Positions 9,146-21,009 of a DNA stretch of 64,000 nt are shown here, piece after piece. The stretch comes from Phaeobacter gallaeciensis (lineage in GTDB: Bacteria; Pseudomonadota; Alphaproteobacteria; Rhodobacterales; Rhodobacteraceae), in assembly GCF_001678945.1 (NCBI RefSeq), contig NZ_CP015124.1, forward strand, positions 3,944,001 through 4,008,000, in the 5' to 3' direction. Below the pieces are notes generated by a model that searched no databases, was not told the origin of the DNA, and worked only from the letters and a program-made list of their open reading frames with translations. A program made the position numbers and the translations under genes. Position 1 is the first letter of the stretch. Every line of letters begins with the position of its first letter.

Positions 9146-10459
9146 CTACATTTGACTTGGCAAGAACAGCACAAGCGTAGGGAAGGCGAGTAGCAGGATC
9201 AGGCGCAGGATATCCATCAGCCAGAAAGGCGTCACGCCGCGAAAGATGGTAGCGGTCGAAACGTCACCAACCACCCCTTTGAGGATGAAGACATTCAGGC
9301 CGACGGGAGGCGTGATCAGGCTGATTTCAATCACGACGACGACAACGATCCCGAACCAGACCGGATCGAACCCCAGCGATGTGATCAGGGGAAAGAAAAT
9401 CGGTACGGTCAGAAGCAGCATCGACATGCTTTCAAAGATGCAGCCGAGGCCGAGGTAGATCAATATGATCAGGATCATCACGACCCAGGGCCCCAGATCA
9501 AGCGATGTGACCAGCGCTAGTAGCCCTTCGGGCAGACCGGCCAGATTGACGAAGTTGGAAAACACCCAGGCCCCTATAAGAACCGCAAAGAGCGAGGCCG
9601 TGGTCAGAGCCGTCTCGCCCAGGACTTCGCGAATGCTTCGCCAATTCAGGTTGCCCCGGGCCAGAGCGATCAGGAAGGCGCCCATTGCCCCCATGCCTGC
9701 GGCCTCGGTCGGGGAAAAGGCGAGATTCAGCGGCCAGAAATTGAGCGCTCCGTAAAGGCCGCCGATGACCAGAAAAAACAGCAGCAGAACGGCCCAGACA
9801 TGGCTGAGCGCCTGCAGGCGTTCGCCCCATGTGGCACGCGTCCCGGCAGGGCCTGCCTCTGGGTTGCGCATCACGGTCAGGCGCACGGCCGCAAGGTAGA
9901 ACAGGACGCCAAGGAAGCCGGGAACGATGCCCGCGATGAACAGCTTGCCGATCGATGTTTCCGTGAGCAGCCCGTAGATGACCAGGATCACCGAGGGCGG
10001 AATGAGAATGCCCAGGGTGCCGCCCGCCGCGATGGAGGCACTGGAAAGACCGTCTGCATATCCGTATTTGCGCATTTCCGGCATGGCCACCTTGGCCATG
10101 GTTGCCGCCGTTGCCAGAGAGGATCCGCAGATGGCCGCAAACCCACCGCAGGCCACGATTGTGGCCATGGCCAGACCGCCACGGAAATGTCCCAGAAAGG
10201 CGTTCGAGACGCGGTAGAGTTCGCGACTGATCCCACCCTTGTTGACGAAAAGCCCCATCAGGATGAACAAGGGAATGACGCTGAGCCCATAGTCCTGTGC
10301 GGTGTCGATGATTAAGCGCCCGACCATCGAAATCGCAGCGCGATAGCTGGTTTCGTAAATCAGCCCGATCATGCCGACAAAACCCATGGCAAAGGCAATC
10401 GGGATGCGCAGCAGGACCAGAACGAAGACGGCGATAAAGCCAAGGAAGGATTCAAGCAT
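9146..10459 (-). CDS. dctM: TRAP transporter large permease (DctM)
   Basis: 437-residue large membrane subunit of a tripartite ATP-independent periplasmic transporter, which couples sodium entry to solute uptake delivered by DctP. About a dozen hydrophobic helices are visible, with family motifs such as RIPIAFAMGFVGMIGL near the start, GGISRELYRVSNAFLGHFRGGLA, and a late IGLGCIFESMSMLLLTVPIFFP-type segment. I start it at MLESFLGF (10459), because this overlaps the end of dctQ by 8 bp, as is usual for these pairs; the open frame continues upstream into dctQ. Last gene of marR-dctP-dctQ-dctM. The neighbouring aromatic operon suggests an aromatic or carboxylate substrate. Confidence 0.94.
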   Translation of the reverse strand: MLESFLGFIAVFVLVLLRIPIAFAMGFVGMIGLIYETSYRAAISMVGRLIIDTAQDYGLSVIPLFILMGLFVNKGGISRELYRVSNAFLGHFRGGLAMATIVACGGFAAICGSSLATAATMAKVAMPEMRKYGYADGLSSASIAAGGTLGILIPPSVILVIYGLLTETSIGKLFIAGIVPGFLGVLFYLAAVRLTVMRNPEAGPAGTRATWGERLQALSHVWAVLLLFFLVIGGLYGALNFWPLNLAFSPTEAAGMGAMGAFLIALARGNLNWRSIREVLGETALTTASLFAVLIGAWVFSNFVNLAGLPEGLLALVTSLDLGPWVVMILIILIYLGLGCIFESMSMLLLTVPIFFPLITSLGFDPVWFGIVVVVVIEISLITPPVGLNVFILKGVVGDVSTATIFRGVTPFWLMDILRLILLLAFPTLVLFLPSQM

Positions 10460-10958
10460 TCTTGGCCTCCAGCATATGCGGCGCAATGAGGTGCAGCAGG
10501 CCGCGCCCGATCAATGCGACAGCGGTGACGTAGATCATCGCTGCGATGAAATAGGCGATATAAAAGGTGGGGATCGACAGATATTCTGTCACGTCGCCGT
10601 AGCTGCGCGAGCGTTCCGCCAGATCGACAACACGGCCCGCCGGATACCACAGCATCACAGCACAGATCAGGGCAACAGCCGCATCACGCCAGCGTTCAAG
10701 TCTCATCCTGCGGAACGGCCCGTCCAACAGATCAACGGCGATATGGCCGTTCTGGGCGCTCAGAACCGGCAAGGCGGCGAACACGATAAGCGCAATGCCG
10801 ATACGGATCAGTTCGGTTGCCGCTTCGATCGGGGCATTGAAAACCGAGCGCATCAGCACATCTGCAAAGGTCAGGCACATCAGCGCAAAAAGGGACAGGT
10901 TGGCCAGGAACATCGGCAGTTTTGAAAGGGCGGTCAGGAACCGGAGGGCGTATTGCAT
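10452..10958 (-). CDS. dctQ: TRAP transporter small permease (DctQ)
   Basis: 168-residue small membrane subunit of the TRAP transporter, with four hydrophobic segments (about residues 15-35, 48-68, 88-108 and 132-155). The first is LANLSLFALMCLTFADVLMRS, where the DVxxRxVFNxPI pattern is typical of DctQ. It holds the complex together with DctM, whose start it overlaps. A 10-bp stem-loop separates it from dctP, which would let the binding protein be made in excess of the membrane parts. Confidence 0.92.
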   Translation of the reverse strand: MQYALRFLTALSKLPMFLANLSLFALMCLTFADVLMRSVFNAPIEAATELIRIGIALIVFAALPVLSAQNGHIAVDLLDGPFRRMRLERWRDAAVALICAVMLWYPAGRVVDLAERSRSYGDVTEYLSIPTFYIAYFIAAMIYVTAVALIGRGLLHLIAPHMLEAKNA

Positions 10959-10990
10959 CGGGCCTCGCTTGAGCGCAGGTGGATATGAAA

Positions 10991-11018
10991 GGACCGGCGC
11001 CCATCTGTGCGCCGGTCC
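10991..11018 (-). terminator. intercistronic stem-loop between dctP and dctQ
   Basis: Perfect 10-bp stem GGACCGGCGC / GCGCCGGTCC around an 8-base loop in the 75-bp gap between dctP and dctQ. On the minus strand it is followed by UUUCAU. It could partly terminate transcription or protect the dctP mRNA 3' end, giving more binding protein than permease. Confidence 0.6.
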
Positions 11019-11033
11019 CGTTTTCCGGATCGT

Positions 11034-12056
11034 TTACTTGCCGGACGCGGCGGCCATTTCCTTGACCATCATGTCATAGGCGGCTTGCCCGTCGATGCCT
11101 GCGGCTGTCACCTCTGCGATGATCTTGTCGCGGACCTCTGCGGCCATGACGGCAAAGGCTGCCTGATCTTCCGCGCTGGCCTCAACGATCTTATTGTCCG
11201 CGGTGTCCAGGGTCAGCTTGCGTGCGGTCGCGTCGCTTTTGTCCCAGACCGCGCCCATCATCCGCGAAGCAGGTTCGCCGAAGACCTTGCTGTCGAGGGC
11301 CTCCTGCACATCGGCGGGCAGGCTGTCGAATTTCTCCTGGCTCATGATGACCGAGAAGGAGCCACGATAGAAACCACCGGGCATTTCGTAAACGTTCTTG
11401 GCAACTTCGTTCAGTTTGAAGCTGATCCGTTCGCCAAGGTTCATGGCAACGGCATCTGCAGCGCCAGAATCAAGCGTCTCGTAGACCTTGGGGGCAGGCA
11501 CCTGGATGCCGACAAGGCCCAGTTTCGCGCCTACGTCTGCGGAGACACCACCGCCCAAACGTGTCTTGAGGCCAGACAGATCGGCCAGGGTGTTGACCTC
11601 TTTGTTCGAGTGGATCTGCCCCGGGCCGTGGGTCGTCAGCGCGATGACCTTGACGCCGCGATGCTCGTTCAGGTCCTTGAGAATGGCTTCGTGCACCCGC
11701 CAATGAGCGACCGAGGAGGCTTCGGCGTTGCCCTCGTAGCCGGGGATCTCGACCAGCTTGGTGCCGACGAACCGTCCGGGCGTGTAACCGTGAAACAGGA
11801 TTGCCACATCCGCGATGCCATCAAGGACCAGATCCATCTGCGCAGGCGGCGAGGCAAGGCCGCTCTTCAGCTCGGTTGCAACGGCACCGTCTGTCGCCTC
11901 TGACATCATCTCGCCCAGTTGAGCGAACATTTCAGTGTTCACCGGGTGGGTGGGCGGCAGCCATGTGGAAATGGTGATCGTTTCGGCAGAAAATGCACTG
12001 GTTCCCATGCTGATCGCAACGGCGGCGCTGGCCAGAATCTTGGTTAGCTTGGTCAT
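11034..12056 (-). CDS. dctP: TRAP transporter periplasmic solute-binding protein (DctP)
   Basis: 340-residue secreted binding protein. A Sec signal peptide spans residues 1-24 (KILASAAVAISMGTSAFSA, cleaved before ETITIST). The mature part begins with the family pattern ITISTWLPPTHPVN and contains a GLKTRLGGGVSADVGAKLG segment corresponding to the ligand-anchoring region of DctP proteins. It captures the solute in the periplasm and hands it to DctQM. The leader contains a second, imperfect copy of the palindrome found at the divergent marR/oxygenase promoter, which suggests MarR control. The solute is unknown, but the genomic position argues for the substrate of the neighbouring ring-oxygenase pathway. 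Confidence 0.94.
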   Translation of the reverse strand: MTKLTKILASAAVAISMGTSAFSAETITISTWLPPTHPVNTEMFAQLGEMMSEATDGAVATELKSGLASPPAQMDLVLDGIADVAILFHGYTPGRFVGTKLVEIPGYEGNAEASSVAHWRVHEAILKDLNEHRGVKVIALTTHGPGQIHSNKEVNTLADLSGLKTRLGGGVSADVGAKLGLVGIQVPAPKVYETLDSGAADAVAMNLGERISFKLNEVAKNVYEMPGGFYRGSFSVIMSQEKFDSLPADVQEALDSKVFGEPASRMMGAVWDKSDATARKLTLDTADNKIVEASAEDQAAFAVMAAEVRDKIIAEVTAAGIDGQAAYDMMVKEMAAASGK

Positions 12057-12173: not shown

Positions 12174-12662
12174 TTAAAGCTTCTCTGGCGCGTCCTCTTC
12201 CAGGGTGTTCAGCAATGCATGCAGTATGGGCTTCAGTTGGTGTCCGCCGTGCTCTGTCAGGCGTTCTAGCAAGGCTTTTTCATGGGCTTGTGCCTGTGGA
12301 ACCAGCCTGTTGGTCAACGCGCGCCCCTCCGGCGTCAAAAAGACGCGGACCCGTCTGCCATCTTCGGGATCACTTTGGCGGATCAGTAGTCCGCGCTTCT
12401 CCATCTGGGCGATGATGCGGGTCAGGCGGGATTGCTCCACCAGCGCGATCCGGGCCAGCTGCGTAATCATCGCGCCTTCGCAGTCGTGCAGGCAGGCCAG
12501 CACCCGCCATTCCGGCACGCGCAGGCCCGAGCTGCGGACTTGGGCGTGAAACTGGGCACTGGCCCCTTCGCTGGCGGCAGCAAGCAGATAAAGCAGGTAG
12601 TTGCTCACAAACCCCGGTGTGCCATCCGGGCTCACTGGCATTGTCATAGGTCCACCCAGCAT
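12174..12662 (-). CDS. MarR family transcriptional regulator
   Basis: 162-residue winged-helix regulator. The central part shows the MarR DNA-binding arrangement: VPEWRVLACLHDCEGAMITQLAR, then VEQSRLTRIIAQMEKRGLL as recognition helix, and the wing SDPEDGRRVRVFLTPEGRAL with the conserved DxRxxxVxLTxxG pattern. The N- and C-terminal helices form the dimer interface. MarR proteins usually repress divergent catabolic genes and are released by aromatic acids or their CoA thioesters. It is divergent from the ring-oxygenase operon and followed by dctPQM. The start could instead be the Met at 12647, which has GGTGGA just upstream. Confidence 0.92.
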   Translation of the reverse strand: MLGGPMTMPVSPDGTPGFVSNYLLYLLAAASEGASAQFHAQVRSSGLRVPEWRVLACLHDCEGAMITQLARIALVEQSRLTRIIAQMEKRGLLIRQSDPEDGRRVRVFLTPEGRALTNRLVPQAQAHEKALLERLTEHGGHQLKPILHALLNTLEEDAPEKL

Positions 12663-12688: not shown

Positions 12689-12717
12689 TTGACCTGAGTT
12701 ATATGAAATTTCATATT
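12689..12717 (+). promoter_or_regulatory. promoter with a perfect MarR-type palindrome
   Basis: A -35-like TTGACC (12689-12694) and a -10-like CATATT (12712-12717) are 17 bp apart. The perfect 16-bp palindrome ATATGAAATTTCATAT (12701-12716) covers the spacer and most of the -10 box. It lies 21 bp before the reductase start and 39 bp before the marR start, so a bound MarR dimer would block the rightward promoter and probably the leftward one too. An AAAGGAGG ribosome site follows at 12723-12730. Confidence 0.7.
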
Positions 12718-12737: not shown

Positions 12738-13682
12738 GTGAGCAAAATTGATGGTGTCGTACTGGAGGTTGCACCGCTGACCGACCGTATCAGCAGCCTG
12801 ACAGTGGCTGCAACAGATGGTCGCGTGTTGCCCGAATGGGAGGCTGGCGCGCATGTCGAGTTCGACGTGCCGGGGGGAACCCGCGCCTATTCTCTGGTGG
12901 CCTTTGACCCGGGCCTCATGTCCGCGCCGAAGGAATACCGCATCACCGTTCAGCGCGAAGATGAGGGGCAGGGTGGCTCCAAGGCGATGCATGCGCTGAC
13001 GGTGGGAGATCCTGTCACTCTCGCAGCGCCCAAGAATGATTTCCCGGTGAAGCTGGACGCCCCGGCTGTTCTATTGGCGGGCGGTATCGGGGTCACGCCA
13101 ATGATTTCGATGGCGGCGGCCTTGCAGGCGGCAGGCCAAAGATTCGCGTTCCACTATGCGGGCCGTACGGGTGCCGCCATGGCCTATCACGAGAGGCTGG
13201 CGGACACCTTTGGCGAGGCGTTTCACCTGCATTGCGATGATGACACGAGCGCGCTGGATCTGGATGCTCTCATAAGTGGGCTGGGGGATGCGCATCTATA
13301 CGTCTGTGGTCCGCGCGGGTTGCTGGATGCGGTGCGCGCCAAGGCCGAAGATGCCGGTATTCCAGCGGATCATGTGCATTTTGAACTCTTCACCGCAGCC
13401 GAGGCGCAGGACGGTGACAGCGCCTTTGAGGTGCAGATCAACGATGGCAGGGTCTTCACCATCCCTGCGGACAAAACCATCGTGGAGGTGCTGGAGGAGC
13501 ATGACGTCGATGTCCTTTACGATTGCCAGCGCGGCGATTGCGGCATCTGCCAATGCGATGTGATCGAGGGCCTGCCGGATCACCGCGATGTTGTGCTCAG
13601 CGAAGCGGAACGCGCCGCTGGTGATGTGATGCAGATATGCGTGAGCCGTGCGAAATCCGCGCGGCTGGTGCTGGATATATAG
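12738..13682 (+). CDS. oxygenase reductase (phthalate dioxygenase reductase / VanB type)
   Basis: 314-residue electron-transfer protein that passes electrons from NAD(P)H through a flavin and a plant-type 2Fe-2S cluster to the Rieske oxygenase encoded next to it. Order: FAD/FMN-binding barrel (residues 1-100, with RAYSLVAFD as the flavin motif), NAD-binding domain (100-225, GGIGVTPMISMAAAL and YVCGPRGLLDAV), and a C-terminal ferredoxin domain with Cys263, Cys268, Cys271 and Cys301 as cluster ligands. GTG start with AAAGGAGG upstream. First gene of the rightward operon, under the MarR palindrome. Confidence 0.94.
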   Translation: MSKIDGVVLEVAPLTDRISSLTVAATDGRVLPEWEAGAHVEFDVPGGTRAYSLVAFDPGLMSAPKEYRITVQREDEGQGGSKAMHALTVGDPVTLAAPKNDFPVKLDAPAVLLAGGIGVTPMISMAAALQAAGQRFAFHYAGRTGAAMAYHERLADTFGEAFHLHCDDDTSALDLDALISGLGDAHLYVCGPRGLLDAVRAKAEDAGIPADHVHFELFTAAEAQDGDSAFEVQINDGRVFTIPADKTIVEVLEEHDVDVLYDCQRGDCGICQCDVIEGLPDHRDVVLSEAERAAGDVMQICVSRAKSARLVLDI

Positions 13683-13692
13683 GGGAACGGAC

Positions 13693-15033
13693 ATGGTCAG
13701 CTATTCAGGAAACCCAACTGCCGCGGCGTCCCTTGTGCAGCCCCATCAGGTGCACCGGGATGTCTATATCAACGAGGACATCTTCAAGCTTGAGATGAAG
13801 CACGTCTTTGCCAATTCATGGGTGTTTGTCGGCCACGAAAGCCAGACCCCGGCCAAGGGCGATTACTTTGCGACCCAGATCGGGGATCAGCCGGTCATCC
13901 AGGTGCGCCACAAGGCGGATGACATTCACGTTCTTTATAATCGCTGCCCGCACAAGGGCACCAAGATCGTCATCGACCGGCAGGGCAACACCGGTAAATT
14001 CTTCCGCTGCCCCTATCACGCGTGGTCCTTCAAGACCGATGGCTGCCTGCTCGCGATCCCACTCAAAAAGGGATACGAGGGCACCGGCCTTGAAGACACC
14101 GAAAGCGGCAAAGGCATGAAGGCGGTCGGCGCCGTCAAGAACTATCGCGGCTTCATCTTTGCGCGGCTCGCCGAGGAGGGCATCAGTTTCGAGGAGTTCT
14201 TTGGCGACAGCCTCAGCTCGCTCGACAATATGGTGGACCGCTCGCCCGAAGGTCGGCTTGAGGTGGTTGGCCCGCCGCTGCGCTATCTGCACCACTGCAA
14301 CTGGAAAATGCTGGTCGAGAACCAGACCGATACCTGCCACCCGATGGTCGCGCATGAAAGCAGCGCCGGAACCGCAGTGAAGCTATACGAAGAGCTGGAC
14401 CTGCCGGAAGGCACGCCCAAGCCCCCCGCGATGGAGATCATCGCGCCCTTCATGTCTCCCTATGAGTTCTTCGAGGGCATGGGGATCCGTACATGGCCCA
14501 ACGGGCACGGGCACACGGGTGTCAGCCATTCGATCCATTCGGATTACTCCGCCATTCCCGGATACTTCGAGGCCCTGACCGAAAGCTACGGCGAAGAGCG
14601 GGCCAAGGCCATTCTGGACGACAACCGCCACAACACCGTCTATTTCCCCAATATCATGATCAAGGGGCCGATCCAGCAGTTGCGGGTCTTCATCCCGCTC
14701 GCGGCCGACAAGACCATCGTCGAAAGCTATATCTATCGTCTGGTTGGGGCGCCGGATGCGCTGACCGCCCGTACGGCGATGTACAACCGCATGATCAATG
14801 CGCCCACCTCGATTGTGGGGCATGACGACCTTGAGATGTACGAGCGCGCGCAGGAAGGATTGCACGCCGACGGTATGGAATGGGTCAATGTCCAGCGTCT
14901 TCTCGAAGACGACGAGGATTTCAGCGAGGAAGCCGTCCACAATGGCACCACCGAACGCCAGATGCGCAACCAGTTCAACGCCTGGGCCAAGTTCATGACC
15001 TATGATGCCCCGGAACAGGAGGTGGCGGAATGA
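13693..15033 (+). CDS. aromatic ring-hydroxylating oxygenase, alpha (Rieske) subunit
   Basis: 446-residue catalytic subunit. The Rieske centre is visible as Cys85-x-His87 and Cys106-x2-His109. The mononuclear iron site follows in NWKMLVENQTDTCHPMVAH, which supplies the bridging Asp and two His ligands, and the C-terminal half is the substrate-binding helix-grip domain. Such enzymes add two oxygen atoms (or hydroxylate/demethylate) on an aromatic ring. ATG at 13693 follows GGGGAACGG; the open frame continues upstream inside the reductase gene. The neighbouring CoA ligase suggests an aromatic acid, or a ring already carrying a carboxyl side chain, as substrate, but the substrate is not determinable here. 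Confidence 0.95.
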   Translation: MVSYSGNPTAAASLVQPHQVHRDVYINEDIFKLEMKHVFANSWVFVGHESQTPAKGDYFATQIGDQPVIQVRHKADDIHVLYNRCPHKGTKIVIDRQGNTGKFFRCPYHAWSFKTDGCLLAIPLKKGYEGTGLEDTESGKGMKAVGAVKNYRGFIFARLAEEGISFEEFFGDSLSSLDNMVDRSPEGRLEVVGPPLRYLHHCNWKMLVENQTDTCHPMVAHESSAGTAVKLYEELDLPEGTPKPPAMEIIAPFMSPYEFFEGMGIRTWPNGHGHTGVSHSIHSDYSAIPGYFEALTESYGEERAKAILDDNRHNTVYFPNIMIKGPIQQLRVFIPLAADKTIVESYIYRLVGAPDALTARTAMYNRMINAPTSIVGHDDLEMYERAQEGLHADGMEWVNVQRLLEDDEDFSEEAVHNGTTERQMRNQFNAWAKFMTYDAPEQEVAE

Positions 15034-15503
15034 GTGTCACACGGGATCAGCTGATCGATTTCATCTATGACGAGGTGCGGATGCTGGACGAGGGGCGCTA
15101 TGACGAGTGGCTGTCACTCTGGCTGCCCGACGGGATCTACTGGATGCCGCTTGATTACAAGCAGACCGATCCGATCAATCAGACCTCGCTTCTATACGAG
15201 GACATGTTCATGCTGAAACTGCGGGTCGAGCGTCTGAACGGCGCGCGCACCTTCAGCCAAAAGCCTAAAAGCCGCTGTCATCATGTCATTCAGCGCCCAT
15301 TCGTGGACGAGATGGGCGAAGACCGTTTCGTGACCAATACCTCGATGCACTACGTGGAGACGCGCCTGGACGAGCAGCAGTTGCTGGCCTTGACCGTGCG
15401 GCATGATCTCGCCCTGGTGGACGGGGCGCTTCGGATCGCGGGCAAGCGGGTTGATCTCCTCAATTGCGACGCGGCCTTCCGCAATATCCAGTTGCTGCCA
15501 TGA
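15030..15503 (+). CDS. aromatic ring-hydroxylating oxygenase, beta subunit
   Basis: 157-residue structural subunit that pairs with the alpha subunit. It has the beta-subunit pattern: an N-terminal helix IDFIYDEVRMLDEGRYDEWLSLW, then DGIYWMPL and a C-terminal LRIAGKRVDLLNCD strand of the NTF2-like fold. Length is close to the usual 160-180. Starts by an ATGA overlap with the alpha gene and ends by another with the CoA ligase. Confidence 0.94.
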   Translation: MSVTRDQLIDFIYDEVRMLDEGRYDEWLSLWLPDGIYWMPLDYKQTDPINQTSLLYEDMFMLKLRVERLNGARTFSQKPKSRCHHVIQRPFVDEMGEDRFVTNTSMHYVETRLDEQQLLALTVRHDLALVDGALRIAGKRVDLLNCDAAFRNIQLLP

Positions 15504-17104
15504 TCACCGCACAGACCGTTTTTGGCGCATTTGCAGAAAGCGCCGCCCGCTGGCCCGACCGCCCGTTCCTGAATGTGCTGCCTGAGACGGCAGAGATCTA
15601 CGGGATCGACACAGGTGAGATCACCTACGCCGAGGCCCTGAAGACGGTGCAGGACCATGTCGCAGAGATTGAGGCCGCCGGATACGTCAAGGGCCAGCGC
15701 GTCATGGTCCTGCTGGAAAACCGGCCCAGCTATTTCCTGTGGTGGCTGGCCTTCAATGCGCTGGGGATCTCCGTCGTTCCCGTGAACCCCGATCTGCGCG
15801 CTGCAGAGATGGAATATATGATCGGGCACGGCGAACCTGTTCTGGCCTTGTCGCTGGCCAGCCGCGCGGACGAGCTGCGCAGCGCCGCTGAGGCGGCCAA
15901 GGTCCAGATGCCTGTGGTGACACTCGGTGACCCTCTGCCACGGGCCGTCACGACCGAGGCGATTGCCGCAAGGACCGGCGATGCAGAGGCGGCGCTGCTC
16001 TATACCTCCGGCACCACCGGGCAGCCCAAGGGCTGTATCCTGACCGATGAATATTTCACCGAGGCGGGCCGCTGGTACAGCACCGCAACCGGCGTTTGCG
16101 CACTGAACACCGACGGCGAGCGGATGATCACGCCGCTGCCGATCTTTCACATGAACGCCATGGCCTTTTCCTTCATGGCGATGGTTGCCGTGGGCGGCTG
16201 CCTGACGGCGCTGGATCGTTTCCATCCACGCAGCTGGTGGGACTCGGTGCGCCGCAGCCGGGCAACCTGCCTGCATTATCTGGGCGTGATGCCCTCGATG
16301 CTGATGGGGGCGGAGCCTTGCGCGGAGGATCGCAATCATTCGGTGCGCTTCGGGTTTGGCGCAGGGATTGATCCAAAACTCCATGCCCCCTTCGAGGAAC
16401 GCTTCGGCTTTGCCCTGACCGAGGCTTGGGCGATGACCGAAACCGGGGCAGGGGCCACGATCTGTGCCAACCGCGAACCACGCAATGTGGGCACCTCCTG
16501 CATCGGCTGGCCGCAGGACACGGTCGAGGCGCGGCTGGTGGATGACAGTGGCGCCGATGCCGATCAGGGTGAACTGCTGGTGCGTCACGCAGGGTCGGAT
16601 CCGCGCAAGGGGTTCTTTGCGGGATATTTCAAGAACCCGGACGCCACGGATGAGGCCTGGGAAGGCGGTTGGTTCCATACCGGCGATATCGTGCGGCGCG
16701 CGGCGGACGGGACGATGTATTTCGTCGACCGCAAGAAGAACGTGATCCGCAGATCCGGGGAAAACATCGCGGCGGTCGAGGTGGAATCCGTGCTGGCCCG
16801 CCATCCCGCAATTGCCGGTGTCGCGGTCGCGGCTGTCCCTGATGAGATCAGGGGAGACGAGGTCTTTGCCTGCATCATTGCAAAAGATGCGGCCAACCCG
16901 CAGCTCGCCGAAGAGATCACCACTTGGTGCCTGACGCAGCTGGCCTATTACAAGGCGCCCGGCTACATCGCCTTTGTCGACGAGCTGCCCGTCACCGCGA
17001 CCCAGAAACTGCAACGGGCGGTGTTGAAGGCGCGCGCCGCTGAACTGCTGACCGATCCGCAGACCGTTGATACCCGGCATCTGAAAAAGCGGAGCGCGGC
17101 ATGA
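15500..17104 (+). CDS. AMP-forming acyl/aryl-CoA ligase
   Basis: 534-residue adenylate-forming enzyme that activates a carboxylic acid to its CoA thioester with ATP. Visible motifs: LLYTSGTTGQPKGC (P-loop, residues ~167-180), the ATP-binding region LTEAWAMTETGAG, HTGDIVRRAADGTMYFVDRKKN (hinge), and the catalytic Lys in TATQKLQRAVLK near residue 510. The start at 15500 forms an ATGA overlap with the beta subunit stop; an upstream in-frame ATG at 15464 lies inside the beta gene. In context it probably activates the oxygenase substrate or a ring-cleavage product for the thiolase-like protein downstream. The actual acid is unknown. Confidence 0.93.
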   Translation: MITAQTVFGAFAESAARWPDRPFLNVLPETAEIYGIDTGEITYAEALKTVQDHVAEIEAAGYVKGQRVMVLLENRPSYFLWWLAFNALGISVVPVNPDLRAAEMEYMIGHGEPVLALSLASRADELRSAAEAAKVQMPVVTLGDPLPRAVTTEAIAARTGDAEAALLYTSGTTGQPKGCILTDEYFTEAGRWYSTATGVCALNTDGERMITPLPIFHMNAMAFSFMAMVAVGGCLTALDRFHPRSWWDSVRRSRATCLHYLGVMPSMLMGAEPCAEDRNHSVRFGFGAGIDPKLHAPFEERFGFALTEAWAMTETGAGATICANREPRNVGTSCIGWPQDTVEARLVDDSGADADQGELLVRHAGSDPRKGFFAGYFKNPDATDEAWEGGWFHTGDIVRRAADGTMYFVDRKKNVIRRSGENIAAVEVESVLARHPAIAGVAVAAVPDEIRGDEVFACIIAKDAANPQLAEEITTWCLTQLAYYKAPGYIAFVDELPVTATQKLQRAVLKARAAELLTDPQTVDTRHLKKRSAA

Positions 17105-18270
17105 GGCGCTTGCCCTATGATGGCGTCGTTTTAACGGCCCCCGTGTCGGTGCCCTACGTCCGCTACACCAACGAGACGGCCCATTGGTGGATCGCCCGCG
17201 CCCTGCGCGAGGCGCTCAACGTGATCGGGATGACCCCGCAGCAGCTGGACGGGCTTTCTGTCTCCAGTTTCACGCTGGCGCCCGATACGCCGGTCGGCCT
17301 GACGCAGCATCTGGGCCTTTCGCCTCGGTGGCTCGATACCGTTCCGATGGGCGGGGCCTGCGGCGTTGCCGCCCTGCGCCGGGCGGCGCGTGCGGTGCAA
17401 TGCGGCGATGCCAATGTCATCGCCTGCGTGTCGGGGGATACCAACCGGATCGATAGTTTCCGCACCCTTCTGTCCGCCTTTTCGCGGTTCTCGATGGATG
17501 CGACCTTTCCCTATGGGTTCGGCGGCCCCAACGCGAGCTTCGCCCTGTTGCAGGACGCATATATGCAACAATTTGGCGCCACGCGTGAGGATTTTGGCCG
17601 TATCGCGGTGGCGCAGCGGGCCAATGCCCTGAAGAACCCGCAGGCGATCATGAAAAAGCCGCTGAGCCTCGATCAATACCTTGAGGGCCGCATGATCTCG
17701 GACCCGATCGGCCTGTTTGATTGCGTGATGCCCTGCGCGGGCGCTGAGGCCTTTGTGGTGATGCGCGAAGAGATGGCCGTGGCCAAGGGCCTGCCCTTTG
17801 CCCGCATCAGCGCCACCATCGAGCGCACCAATGCCTTTCCTGAGGATCCCATGCAGCTGCGTGGCGGCTGGGCCGTGGACGTGGACGAGCTGTGGCAGAT
17901 GGCGGGCCATGGCCCTGACGAGATCGACGTCCTGCAAACCTATGATGATTACCCGGTGATCTGCATGATGCAGTTCGAAGACCTGGGGTTCTGCGCCAAG
18001 GGCGAGGGCGCTGAGTTTGTGCGCCGCCATGATCTGACCATCGGCGGCGATTTCCCGCATAACACCTCGGGCGGGCAGCTGTCCGTCGGACAGGCCGGAG
18101 CCGCAGGCGGCTATCTTGGACTGGTCGAAGCACTGCGACAGGTGACGGGCACAGCGGGACCAACCCAGGTCGAGGGCGCCCGCCGGGCGGCCGTGTCGGG
18201 CTTTGGCGTGATCAACTATGACCGGGGTCTTTGTTCCTCTGCCGCCGTGATCGAAGGAGGGACGACATGA
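17101..18270 (+). CDS. thiolase-like protein (SCP2-type / BbsB-like) with altered His motif
   Basis: 389-residue thiolase-fold protein. The nucleophile Cys is likely Cys87 in PMGGACGVAAL, and LGFCAKGEGAEFV and the C-terminal GFGVINYDRGLCSS are typical of the SCP2-thiolase branch. The usual GHPxGxTG loop that holds the catalytic His is replaced by NTSGGQLSVGQAGAAGG (residues 321-337), so this is not a standard acetyl-CoA acetyltransferase. Proteins of this branch work together with a DUF35 zinc-ribbon/OB partner, as in BbsAB of toluene degradation or the Ltp2-ChsH2 retro-aldolase of steroid side-chain degradation. Here the partner is encoded immediately downstream with an ATGA overlap. Likely role: C-C cleavage of an acyl-CoA intermediate. 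Confidence 0.88.
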   Translation: MRRLPYDGVVLTAPVSVPYVRYTNETAHWWIARALREALNVIGMTPQQLDGLSVSSFTLAPDTPVGLTQHLGLSPRWLDTVPMGGACGVAALRRAARAVQCGDANVIACVSGDTNRIDSFRTLLSAFSRFSMDATFPYGFGGPNASFALLQDAYMQQFGATREDFGRIAVAQRANALKNPQAIMKKPLSLDQYLEGRMISDPIGLFDCVMPCAGAEAFVVMREEMAVAKGLPFARISATIERTNAFPEDPMQLRGGWAVDVDELWQMAGHGPDEIDVLQTYDDYPVICMMQFEDLGFCAKGEGAEFVRRHDLTIGGDFPHNTSGGQLSVGQAGAAGGYLGLVEALRQVTGTAGPTQVEGARRAAVSGFGVINYDRGLCSSAAVIEGGTT

Positions 18271-19517
18271 TCAGGCCACTTTCCCCGCCGAAAAAGAAAG
18301 ACCCGCAAAAACGCACCACCGTGCCGGTGCTGCCCCCCGCCACGCGCAGCCGGGCCGCGTTGGGGCTGGGTGTGATGGCCGCGCAGGGTTGTTTTGGCCT
18401 GCAGGTCTGCGCAGACTGCCAGGCGGTGCAATATCCACCGCGTGATGCCTGCCACAAATGCCTGTCCACTGATCTGCCTTGGCAGGATGTGGATCCATCC
18501 GGCACGGTCATGGCTGAAACCACGATCCGTGTGTCGCCTGAACCCTATTTCCGTGAACGGATGCCCTGGCGCATGGGGGCGGTGAAACTCGATGCCGGGC
18601 CCATGCTCAACTGCCATCTGCATGGCGAGGTTGGCCGCGGTGATGCGGTGCGCATGGCGTTGAAACTGGACAGGGCCGGGCAAGGCGTATTGGTTGCGCT
18701 GCCACAGAAAGGAAGCGATGCGATGCAAGATGATTCCGTGCTGCGGGCGATGTCGTCCGATCCAAAATACCGCCGCGTCCTGATCAGTGATGCGCGCGCG
18801 CCGGTGGCTCTGGCCCTGACGCAGGCTCTGCTCAAGGCTGGTGCCTCTCACGTGTTTCTGGGAGAGCCTGAGGCCTGGCGCAGCTGGCCGGAACGGGCGG
18901 CGTTCGAGCAGCTGGAGAATGTCTCGCTTCTGCCGCTGGATGTGACGGATGTGGCCTCGATCGAAAAGCTCGCTGCCGAGATCGGCGGCAAGGTCGATAT
19001 CCTGATCAACACGGCCAGCTTTGTGCGCCCCGGCGGGATCATGGGCAATGACACGGTCTTTGCCCGCGACGGTTTCGAGGTGAACAGCATGGGCCTGATG
19101 CGGCTGGCGCAGGGGTTTGGCCCCGGCATGGCGGCGCGGGTGCAGGATGGAACCAATTCGGCGGCGGCCTTCGTGAATATCCTCTCGGTTCAGGCGCTGG
19201 TGCCGGATCCGGGTTTTGGCACATTCGGGGCGTCCCAGGCGGCGGCGCGGTCGATCTCGCAAAGCCTGCGCGCCGAATTCCGCCAGAGCGGCTTGCGCGT
19301 GATGAATGTCTATATCGGCCCCATCGAGGGTGATGCCTGGTTTCAGCCGCTGCCGCCGCCCAAGGTCACGCCGAACGCCGTCGCGCGCTCGGTCGTCGGC
19401 GGGCTGGTTGATGGGCTGGAAGAGGTCACCTGCGGCGATATCGCCCGTGATCACTATGCGCGCTGGCAGGCTGATGCGCTGTTGCTGGAACGGGAAATGA
19501 CCGGAGGCGGATCATGA
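18267..19517 (+). CDS. DUF35 zinc-ribbon/OB-fold protein fused to a degenerate SDR domain
   Basis: 416-residue two-domain protein. Residues 1-150 form a DUF35 (ChsH2/BbsA-like) unit with a zinc ribbon made by Cys48, Cys51, Cys62 and Cys65 followed by an OB-fold; these bind acyl-CoA and assist thiolase-fold partners. Residues ~165-416 have the length and secondary-structure pattern of a short-chain dehydrogenase but have lost the key residues: the TGxxxGIG cofactor loop is SDARAPVA (174-181), NNAG is NTAS (248-251), and the catalytic YxxxK is FGASQ (Phe320, Gln324), although Ser307 remains. The SDR half is therefore probably inactive and structural. Overlaps both neighbours by ATGA. Compare BbsA plus the silent SDR subunit BbsC. 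Confidence 0.87.
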   Translation: MIRPLSPPKKKDPQKRTTVPVLPPATRSRAALGLGVMAAQGCFGLQVCADCQAVQYPPRDACHKCLSTDLPWQDVDPSGTVMAETTIRVSPEPYFRERMPWRMGAVKLDAGPMLNCHLHGEVGRGDAVRMALKLDRAGQGVLVALPQKGSDAMQDDSVLRAMSSDPKYRRVLISDARAPVALALTQALLKAGASHVFLGEPEAWRSWPERAAFEQLENVSLLPLDVTDVASIEKLAAEIGGKVDILINTASFVRPGGIMGNDTVFARDGFEVNSMGLMRLAQGFGPGMAARVQDGTNSAAAFVNILSVQALVPDPGFGTFGASQAAARSISQSLRAEFRQSGLRVMNVYIGPIEGDAWFQPLPPPKVTPNAVARSVVGGLVDGLEEVTCGDIARDHYARWQADALLLEREMTGGGS

Positions 19518-20287
19518 GCGATCTTATTGCAGATGTGGCCGTGGCGCTGGGCAGCGGTGCGGCGCGTATCGTGGACCTGACCCATACGCTGGACCCGGAT
19601 TTTCCGGTCATCATCCTGCCGCCGGAATTTGGCCAATGCGCCCGCTTCCGCATGGAAGAGGTCAGCGCCTATGATCATCGCGGCCCCGCGTGGAAGTGGC
19701 ACAACCTGACCCTCAATGAACACACGGGCACTCATTTTGACGCTCCTATCCACTGGGTGTCGGGCAAGGATGTGCCCAATGGCGCAGTGGATGAGATCGA
19801 CCCGGGCGTCTTTGTCGGACCGGTCGTGGTGATCGACTGTTCCGAAGGCGCGGCCAAGGACGACGATTTCGAGCTGACACCAGAGATCATCGAAGCTTGG
19901 GAAGCCGAACACGGAGAAATCCCTGCCGATAGCTGGGTCTTGATGCGCACCGACTGGTCCAAGCGCAGCGGGGCAGCCTATCTCAACATGGCAGAGGACG
20001 GGCCGCATTCACCGGGGCCGACCCCGGCAGCGATCGAGCTGCTGCTGAAGCGGGACATTCGCGGGTTCGGGACGGAAACCGTTGGCACCGATGCCGGTCA
20101 GGGATCTCATTACGTGCCACCCTATCCGGCGCATTACTTGCTTCATGGGGCAGGCAAATTCGGGCTGCAATGCCTGCGCAACCTAGATCAGCTGCCCCCC
20201 ACGGGCGCGCTGCTGATTGCCCCCCCTCTCAAGATTAAAGGCGGTACGGGCAGCCCCCTGCGCGTGCTGGCAATGGTGACGACATGA
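19514..20287 (+). CDS. cyclase / kynurenine-formamidase-like metal-dependent hydrolase
   Basis: 257-residue protein of the cyclase (kynurenine formamidase-like) superfamily, metal-dependent hydrolases acting on amides, lactones or cyclic intermediates. The metal-binding signature HTGTHFDAPIHW (around residues 76-87) is complete, preceded by RIVDLTHTLDPDFPV and followed by WVLMRTDWS, GFGTETVGTDAG and HYLLHGAGKFGLQCL, all conserved segments of the family. The operon position suggests hydrolysis of a pathway intermediate, for example a ring-opened acyl compound. Joined to both neighbours by ATGA overlaps. Confidence 0.9.
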   Translation: MSDLIADVAVALGSGAARIVDLTHTLDPDFPVIILPPEFGQCARFRMEEVSAYDHRGPAWKWHNLTLNEHTGTHFDAPIHWVSGKDVPNGAVDEIDPGVFVGPVVVIDCSEGAAKDDDFELTPEIIEAWEAEHGEIPADSWVLMRTDWSKRSGAAYLNMAEDGPHSPGPTPAAIELLLKRDIRGFGTETVGTDAGQGSHYVPPYPAHYLLHGAGKFGLQCLRNLDQLPPTGALLIAPPLKIKGGTGSPLRVLAMVTT

Positions 20288-21009
20288 GCAAGTATACAGC
20301 CGTGATCACGGGCGGCAGCAAGGGCATTGGCGCCGATCTGGGGCAGCGCCTGATTGCTAGGGGATACACGGTTGTCTCCCTGTCACGCGGCGCGCCTGAG
20401 TGGTCGGATCCGGGCCTGCACCACGTGGAGGTCGACCTGCTGGACGCAAGCGCCACGGCGCAGGCCGCAGCAGAAATCGCAGCCAATCATGATGTGACAC
20501 ATCTGGTGAACAATGCCGGGATGATCTGGCCCAATCTGCTGGAAGAGGCGACGCCCGAAGATCTGGCCGGGCTGACGCAGCTGCACCTTGCGGCCCCGCT
20601 GACGCTGTTGCAGGCCTTCTTGCCTGCGATGAAGGCGAAGGGCTTTGGAAGGGTTCTTTTCAACGGTTCGCGCGCTGCGCTTGGCGTGCCGACACGTACG
20701 GCCTATTCCGCCACCAAGGCGGGGATCATCGGCATGGCCCGCACCTGGGCGCTGGAACTGGCCGGGCATGGCATCACGGTGAATGTGGTCTCTCCCGGCC
20801 CCGTGCAGACCGATAACTTCTGGGGGATCATTCCCAAGAGCAGCGACCGTGAGGCAGAGCTGGCGAAGCGCATTCCGGTGGGGCGTCTCGGCACGGTGCG
20901 CGATATCTCGAACGCCTTTCTGTTCTTTTGCGATCCGGAGAACGGGTTTGTCACTGGTCAGACCCTGTATGTTTGCGGTGGCGGCAGCGTCGGGGCGATG
21001 TCGCTTTGA
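20284..21009 (+). CDS. short-chain dehydrogenase/reductase (active type)
   Basis: 241-residue NAD(P)-dependent dehydrogenase with all SDR residues present: TGGSKGIG (9-16), NNAG (76-79), Ser129, Tyr141 and Lys145 in YSATK. It is the natural active partner for the degenerate SDR domain encoded two genes upstream. In the benzylsuccinate pathway BbsD plays this part beside the silent BbsC. Alternatives are a cis-dihydrodiol dehydrogenase for the oxygenase product or a plain beta-hydroxyacyl-CoA dehydrogenase. Last gene of the operon; a 7-bp stem-loop lies downstream. Confidence 0.92.
   Translation: MSKYTAVITGGSKGIGADLGQRLIARGYTVVSLSRGAPEWSDPGLHHVEVDLLDASATAQAAAEIAANHDVTHLVNNAGMIWPNLLEEATPEDLAGLTQLHLAAPLTLLQAFLPAMKAKGFGRVLFNGSRAALGVPTRTAYSATKAGIIGMARTWALELAGHGITVNVVSPGPVQTDNFWGIIPKSSDREAELAKRIPVGRLGTVRDISNAFLFFCDPENGFVTGQTLYVCGGGSVGAMSL

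Follow-up and report, generated by a model that had tools for sequence, protein, structure and literature searches.

The protein encoded at positions 18267–19517 of the window (the whole stretch of 64,000 nucleotides of Phaeobacter gallaeciensis DNA analyzed here) raises the question of what an enzyme chain can do once its catalytic residues have disappeared. This 416-residue open reading frame of the forward strand joins a DUF35 half to an SDR-sized domain without the usual SDR motifs. The initial annotation proposed that two accessory partners of the Bbs type, a BbsA-like zinc-finger protein and a BbsC-like silent SDR, had merged into one chain, tethering the dehydrogenase encoded downstream and the thiolase encoded upstream into one channel. 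Our analysis keeps the architecture and points to another function.

Judged from sequence, the genes of the operon correspond one by one to those of the iad operon of auxin degradation (iadCDEFGHIJ), and the protein in question is IadH. The gene order on the forward strand, iadC-D-E-F-G-H-I-J, is that of Variovorax paradoxus (PMC10374108, PMC12633357), and the set is accompanied by a MarR regulator of the IAA-binding type. iadC (12738–13682) encodes an NAD-binding/2Fe-2S reductase (Pfam NAD_binding_1 and Fer2), and iadD (13693–15033) and iadE (15030–15503) encode the alpha and beta subunits of a Rieske oxygenase, the former with V. paradoxus IadD as best PDB match (9o71, E = 1e-167) and the latter with 7yls_A/9o71 as sole PDB match at 1e-15 (E = 1e-44). 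They are followed by iadF (15464–17104), encoding an AMP-forming acyl-CoA ligase (Pfam AMP-binding and AMP-binding_C), by iadG (17101–18270), iadH and iadI (19514–20287), and by iadJ (20284–21009), encoding an SDR dehydrogenase. On the reverse strand, iadR (12174–12662) encodes the MarR-family regulator, whose best PDB match is 3cdh (E = 3e-46), a protein that binds IAA with a KD of 0.24 µM (PMC9613470). A perfect 16-bp palindrome between iadR and iadC, ATATGAAATTTCATAT (12701–12716), is unique in the window and is a candidate IadR operator; its core ATGAAWWTTCAT is present in the iadR-iadC gaps of 21 of 41 relatives. Ruegeria pomeroyi, which degrades IAA (PMC9613470), carries the same iad operon as the window.

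The gene directly behind iadH encodes an isatin hydrolase of the cyclase family. IadI shares 83% identity over 246 aa with isatin hydrolase A (5nnb) from Labrenzia (Roseibium) aggregata. In R. aggregatum IAM 12614 (L092), the gene immediately 3′ of iadH encodes a protein with 100% identity to the crystallized enzyme over 249 aa. The metal motif of isatin hydrolases, HxG[T/A]HxDxPxH (PMC6117287), reads HTGTHFDAPIH in the aligned sequence. IadI thus combines this motif with close identity to a characterized enzyme, and a characterized relative uses isatin (PMC6117287).

Genes for a TRAP transporter (DctM, DctQ and DctP) lie at 9146–12056 on the reverse strand, divergent from the iad operon, and are a candidate auxin importer. 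A TRAP transporter is similarly placed in Sulfitobacter sp. D7 (L038) and stands on the opposite side in Labrenzia (L040). Also, Sulfitobacter sp. THAF37 carries a second thiolase-DUF35 pair, without the SDR half, adjoining its iad operon (L043, 9529–11129).

The two halves of IadH were well delimited. Pfam domains zf-ChsH2, OB_ChsH2_C and adh_short (residues 172–356) all exceeded their gathering scores. The zinc ribbon (residues 45–70, 18399–18476) contains Cys 48, 51, 62 and 65 with the spacing C-x2-C-x10-C-x2-C, and is followed by the OB-fold (residues 72–131, 18480–18659), so that the N-terminal half has both the Cys4 ribbon and the OB-fold of a DUF35 protein, as had been read from the sequence at first sight. 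The SDR domain occupies residues 166–416 (18762–19514). The start and stop codons of iadH overlap with those of iadG and iadI as ATGA on either side. An AlphaFold2 model built on a 70-sequence alignment reached a mean pLDDT of 89.4 and a pTM of 0.89. This check, suggested by the initial annotation, gave a modelled C-terminal half that takes the SDR fold and superposes on the NADP-bound classical SDR 5u4s with Z 32.2 (236 residues, rmsd 1.7 Å); 5U4S, the nearest solved fold, is a stand-alone protein with bound NADP, whereas the IadH domain lacks the motifs. For the DUF35 half alone, the nearest fold was that of 9myr_B, the partner of the steroid aldolase Sal (Z 13.7, 136 residues, rmsd 3.0). 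The partner of the steroid aldolase Ltp2, 6ok1_B, came next and shared its Z of 12.9 with Trf (6htj), and BbsA (7pxp_A, Z 9.1) came behind these Sal and Ltp2 partners.

In the SDR half, TGxxxGIG is replaced by SDARAPVA (residues 174–181), NNAG by NTAS (248–251) and YxxxK by FGASQ (320–324), in agreement with the initial annotation, whereas Ser307 and Asn273 are still present. The domain is therefore not an active classical SDR as defined by TGxxxGxG, NNAG and Ser-Tyr-Lys. The loss could have been apparent, with catalytic residues shifted elsewhere, or could have been a local decay of the window protein; both possibilities were rejected. In sequence alignments the catalytic positions align directly and no shifted replacements were found, and the loss is conserved across Alpha-, Beta- and Gammaproteobacteria. 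The alignment comprised 147 rows, made up of the window protein and 146 distinct full-length sequences (among which it recurs as L001), and the fused architecture is full length and stop-free in all 146. The four Cys are invariant (147/147), every row (147/147) carries Asp, Asn or Glu at position 175 in place of the first Gly of TGxxxGxG, intact NNAG occurs in none of the common IadH types listed, with NTAG in two rows, and Tyr320 and Lys324 occur together in one row only (L138), a sequence in which the first motif Gly is missing and NNAG reads NNAE. Ser307 and Asn273 are mostly kept. Burkholderiaceae-type sequences retain Ser and Lys, with Tyr replaced by Phe, and the alignment thus indicates that motif decay is uneven across the family. 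On a tree computed after removal of three trait columns, residue 324 underwent at least 26 changes. As a control, IadJ kept every catalytic residue in 125 of 125 aligned rows, which confirms the earlier statement that this SDR is intact.

Within the family to which the window's genome belongs, IadH matches at 1e-20 were found in 38 of 348 good genomes, a few being SDR-only. Homologues also occur in Rhizobiales and Gammaproteobacteria, and in 26 of 310 good genomes of another proteobacterial family, which has Variovorax-like members. A match on a Rhodococcus koreensis plasmid (L125, 6596–9125) was rejected as a fusion, as the thiolase-like protein, the DUF35 protein and an intact SDR are encoded there by three adjacent, unfused genes. 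The nearest stand-alone SDR relatives of the IadH SDR half have intact motifs; therefore, by sequence comparison, an active SDR is the most likely ancestor of this half. Its dN/dS is about 0.04–0.08 and comparable to the value for the DUF35 half, dS being close to saturation. Despite the motif loss, the domain is not decaying as a fold, and purifying selection is strong.

What the DUF35 half assists is suggested by the neighboring, overlapping gene. The best PDB match of IadG is Sal (9myr_A), and bit scores decreased from Sal (172) to Ltp2 (131), BbsB (103) and SCP2 thiolase (78). Residues 281–284 of IadG (17941–17952) form a YDDY motif, invariant in 145 of 145 rows, which aligns with the catalytic motifs YDCY of Sal and YDHF of Ltp2, where the Tyr is the catalytic base (PMC12329534); at this position BbsB has HDAF. 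IadG therefore possesses the catalytic Tyr of the Sal/Ltp2 retro-aldolases. It lacks the His of HDxF, and the nucleophilic Cys of BbsAB-type thiolases is not conserved, this position being Ser in 132 and Cys in 6 of the 145 rows, the IadG of the window among the six. Also, Gln326 and Gln331 match Gln347 and Gln352 of Sal by motif position. The second catalytic residue of Sal (Cys304) or of Ltp2 (Tyr344, with His296) is not found in IadG, and Asp283 is invariant where Sal has Cys and Ltp2 has His. Since Sal requires Cys304 (PMC12329534), this Asp speaks against a retro-aldolase. The sequence comparisons thus suggest that IadG works like the Sal and Ltp2 aldolases, and we assign it to neither clade. 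Sal and Ltp2 are each bound to the DUF35 domain of a neighboring hydratase (PMC12329534, PMC11321319), and by analogy IadG probably binds the DUF35 half of IadH.

Genetic data are available for V. paradoxus. Deletion of iadH reduces or abolishes anthranilate and leads to a build-up of C10H9NO4 (DOAA), deletions of iadF and iadG act alike, and IadJ is placed before CoA activation by IadF (PMC12633357); the labels used there, which stem from annotation, are ketothiolase for IadG and alcohol dehydrogenase for IadH. The terms DUF35 and OB-fold are absent from this paper, and the lost catalytic residues of IadH are not mentioned in its available part. A limited literature search for a DUF35-SDR fusion or for BbsCD returned nothing useful.

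We propose, with a probability of about 0.7, that IadH is the DUF35 partner of a retro-aldolase, IadG, joined to a non-redox pseudo-SDR, and that both convert DOAA-CoA to isatin and acetyl-CoA. IadCDE and IadJ would make dioxindole-3-acetate (DOAA) and IadF would convert it to its CoA thioester. The DUF35 half of IadH would bind IadG and help to shape its active site, and IadG, as a retro-aldolase and not a thiolase, would cut the C3-CH2 bond of DOAA-CoA without a redox cofactor. IadI would then hydrolyze isatin. The SDR half would take no part in redox chemistry and would be a pseudoenzyme, which purifying selection retains for a structural or docking role. The cleavage reaction, the contact between IadG and IadH and the role of the SDR half are what we infer, and for IadH the evidence consists of sequence and predicted structure. 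Chemical reasoning favors the retro-aldol route: DOAA-CoA is a tertiary beta-hydroxyacyl-CoA, in which the oxidation of C3 to a ketone for thiolysis is impossible and a retro-aldol cleavage is possible. The mass balance agrees without any redox step (C10H9NO4 = C8H5NO2, isatin, + C2H4O2), and isatin was found earlier in cultures of V. paradoxus CL14 (PMC9613470).

The uneven motif decay, with Ser and Lys kept in Burkholderiaceae-type IadH and Tyr and Lys in L138, counts against this model, as do two reports. In the ChsH2/Ltp2 system, the DUF35 domain reportedly seems unimportant to aldolase activity (PMC11321319). Jiang et al. proposed that the side chain is removed reductively, giving C8H7NO2, which has the formula of dioxindole and accumulates in the iadI mutant (PMC12633357). 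In the retro-aldol model, this C8H7NO2 would be isatin reduced by other enzymes, and C8H7NO3 would be isatinate, as its formula and the identification of IadI as an isatin hydrolase suggest. Dioxindole can form from isatin through host reductases.

The accumulation of C8H7NO2 and the alcohol dehydrogenase label would both be in line with an IadH that, for all its unusual residues, functions as an NAD(P)H reductase of a cleavage product, as would the frequent retention of Ser307 and Asn273 and the Lys of Burkholderiaceae-type sequences. We consider this very unlikely, given the host-reductase route to dioxindole and the complete loss of the first motif Gly (147/147), with the Tyr and Lys pair gone from 146 of 147 rows. 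Position 324 appears free to evolve, the characterized relative of IadI uses isatin, and one operon dispenses with the SDR domain altogether. In that operon, of genome G1289 (L165, 4077–11530), the order is F - G - DUF35-only H (157 aa) - J - MarR - D - E - I, with J intact. A pseudo-SDR split off and encoded elsewhere was looked for in this one genome, 92% complete, and was not found; the best match, an ordinary intact SDR, was rejected. DUF35 alone would therefore cover the catalytic need of IadH, as far as a single case in a 92%-complete genome can indicate. Loss of the SDR half in this locus and in L168, together with its erosion in L044 and L167, could also mean that it is a passive remnant of an old fusion, tolerated and without function. 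This is improbable for a domain that is full length in 146 distinct sequences, modelled with high confidence as an intact fold, and under a strong purifying selection similar to that on the DUF35 half.

The Bbs-type merger, in which a BbsA-like partner and a silent SDR of the BbsC type are joined, the latter docking IadJ and channeling substrate from dehydrogenase to thiolase, is in line with the presence of both halves in one chain. The DUF35 half does resemble BbsA, and an intact iadJ is encoded in most loci (59/65). Nevertheless, we regard it as unlikely. The motif of IadG is of the aldolase type, YDDY and not HDAF, and both IadG and the DUF35 half are closer to the Sal and Ltp2 systems. 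The IadH SDR half shares just 23% identity with IadJ, over only 88 aa, and these two therefore do not look, by sequence, like a duplicated pair. According to the pathway order in PMC12633357, IadJ precedes CoA activation and therefore does not feed IadG directly. Also, G-H-I occur without J nearby in five loci (L042, L089, L097, L177, L178), and in L165 the DUF35-only IadH adjoins an intact IadJ. Nothing in our analysis favors docking between IadH and IadJ. Of the fusion of accessory partners proposed initially, what stands is a dead SDR and a DUF35 half whose most likely partner is the thiolase-fold IadG encoded next to it; the Bbs-specific identity and the channel are not supported.

The variant loci hint at IadI rather than at IadJ as the docked protein, the cases being few and partly related. 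Even with the rest of the iad genes dispersed (L077, L091) or missing (L042, L089, L097), G-H-I still stand side by side, and among the loci examined the SDR half is kept wherever I follows H. H and I are non-adjacent in five of the loci examined; four of these lack the SDR half or have it in eroded form (L165, L168, L044, L167), and only L041 keeps it. Operons consisting of a CoA ligase, a YDDY thiolase-fold protein and a DUF35 protein, without Rieske and isatin hydrolase genes, were found in L044 (6901–11095), L167 (7146–11562) and L168 (7373–10760), and probably act on another substrate; among F-G-H operons lacking the isatin hydrolase, the SDR half is eroded in L044 and L167, missing in L168 and kept in L041. 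The pseudo-SDR of IadH would be a conserved scaffold, perhaps docking IadI. More specifically, and as a tentative suggestion, the dead SDR half may dock IadI against the IadG/DUF35 aldolase, so that the reactive isatin passes directly to hydrolysis.

IadH of V. paradoxus CL014 occupies the same site, between iadG and iadI, in the same operon (PMC9613470, PMC12633357), and the clade with IadD 94–95% identical to 9O71 (Variovorax-like) shows the same DUF35-SDR fusion, with Tyr replaced by Phe and Gly by Asp. Our reading as a DUF35-pseudo-SDR thus differs from the alcohol dehydrogenase of the literature. The ChsH2/Ltp2 system (6OK1) similarly combines a DUF35 domain fused to an inert domain with a thiolase-fold retro-aldolase partner (PMC11321319), but the inert domain of ChsH2 is MaoC and not SDR, the domain order is reversed, and ChsH2, unlike IadH, has an active partner subunit from its own family, ChsH1. 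Shy-Sal (9MYR), the top match of both IadG and the IadH DUF35 half, has DUF35 at the N-terminus of the fusion as in IadH; in Shy, however, the DUF35 site is Cys3His1 and the MaoC hydratase is active, where IadH has Cys4 and a dead SDR, and the motif of Sal is YDCY against YDDY in IadG. The benzoylsuccinyl-CoA thiolase BbsAB (7PXP) also pairs a DUF35 protein with a thiolase-fold partner, but has HDAF in BbsB and an unfused DUF35 protein, and is further from IadG and IadH in sequence and fold.

The breakdown of auxin by bacteria shapes plant roots as well as the exchange between algae and bacteria. If IadH is indeed an aldolase partner, a redox-neutral retro-aldol reaction would replace the reductive removal of the side chain in the iad pathway, and isatin would be the missing product, which would explain why an isatin hydrolase is the next enzyme. 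Our reading would also correct the annotation "SDR family oxidoreductase", which is carried by hundreds of genomes, and IadH would constitute a second case, beside ChsH2, of a DUF35 domain joined to an inert enzyme domain. Should the docking of IadI hold true, a pseudo-dehydrogenase would have been recruited to serve an aldolase and a hydrolase as their common scaffold.
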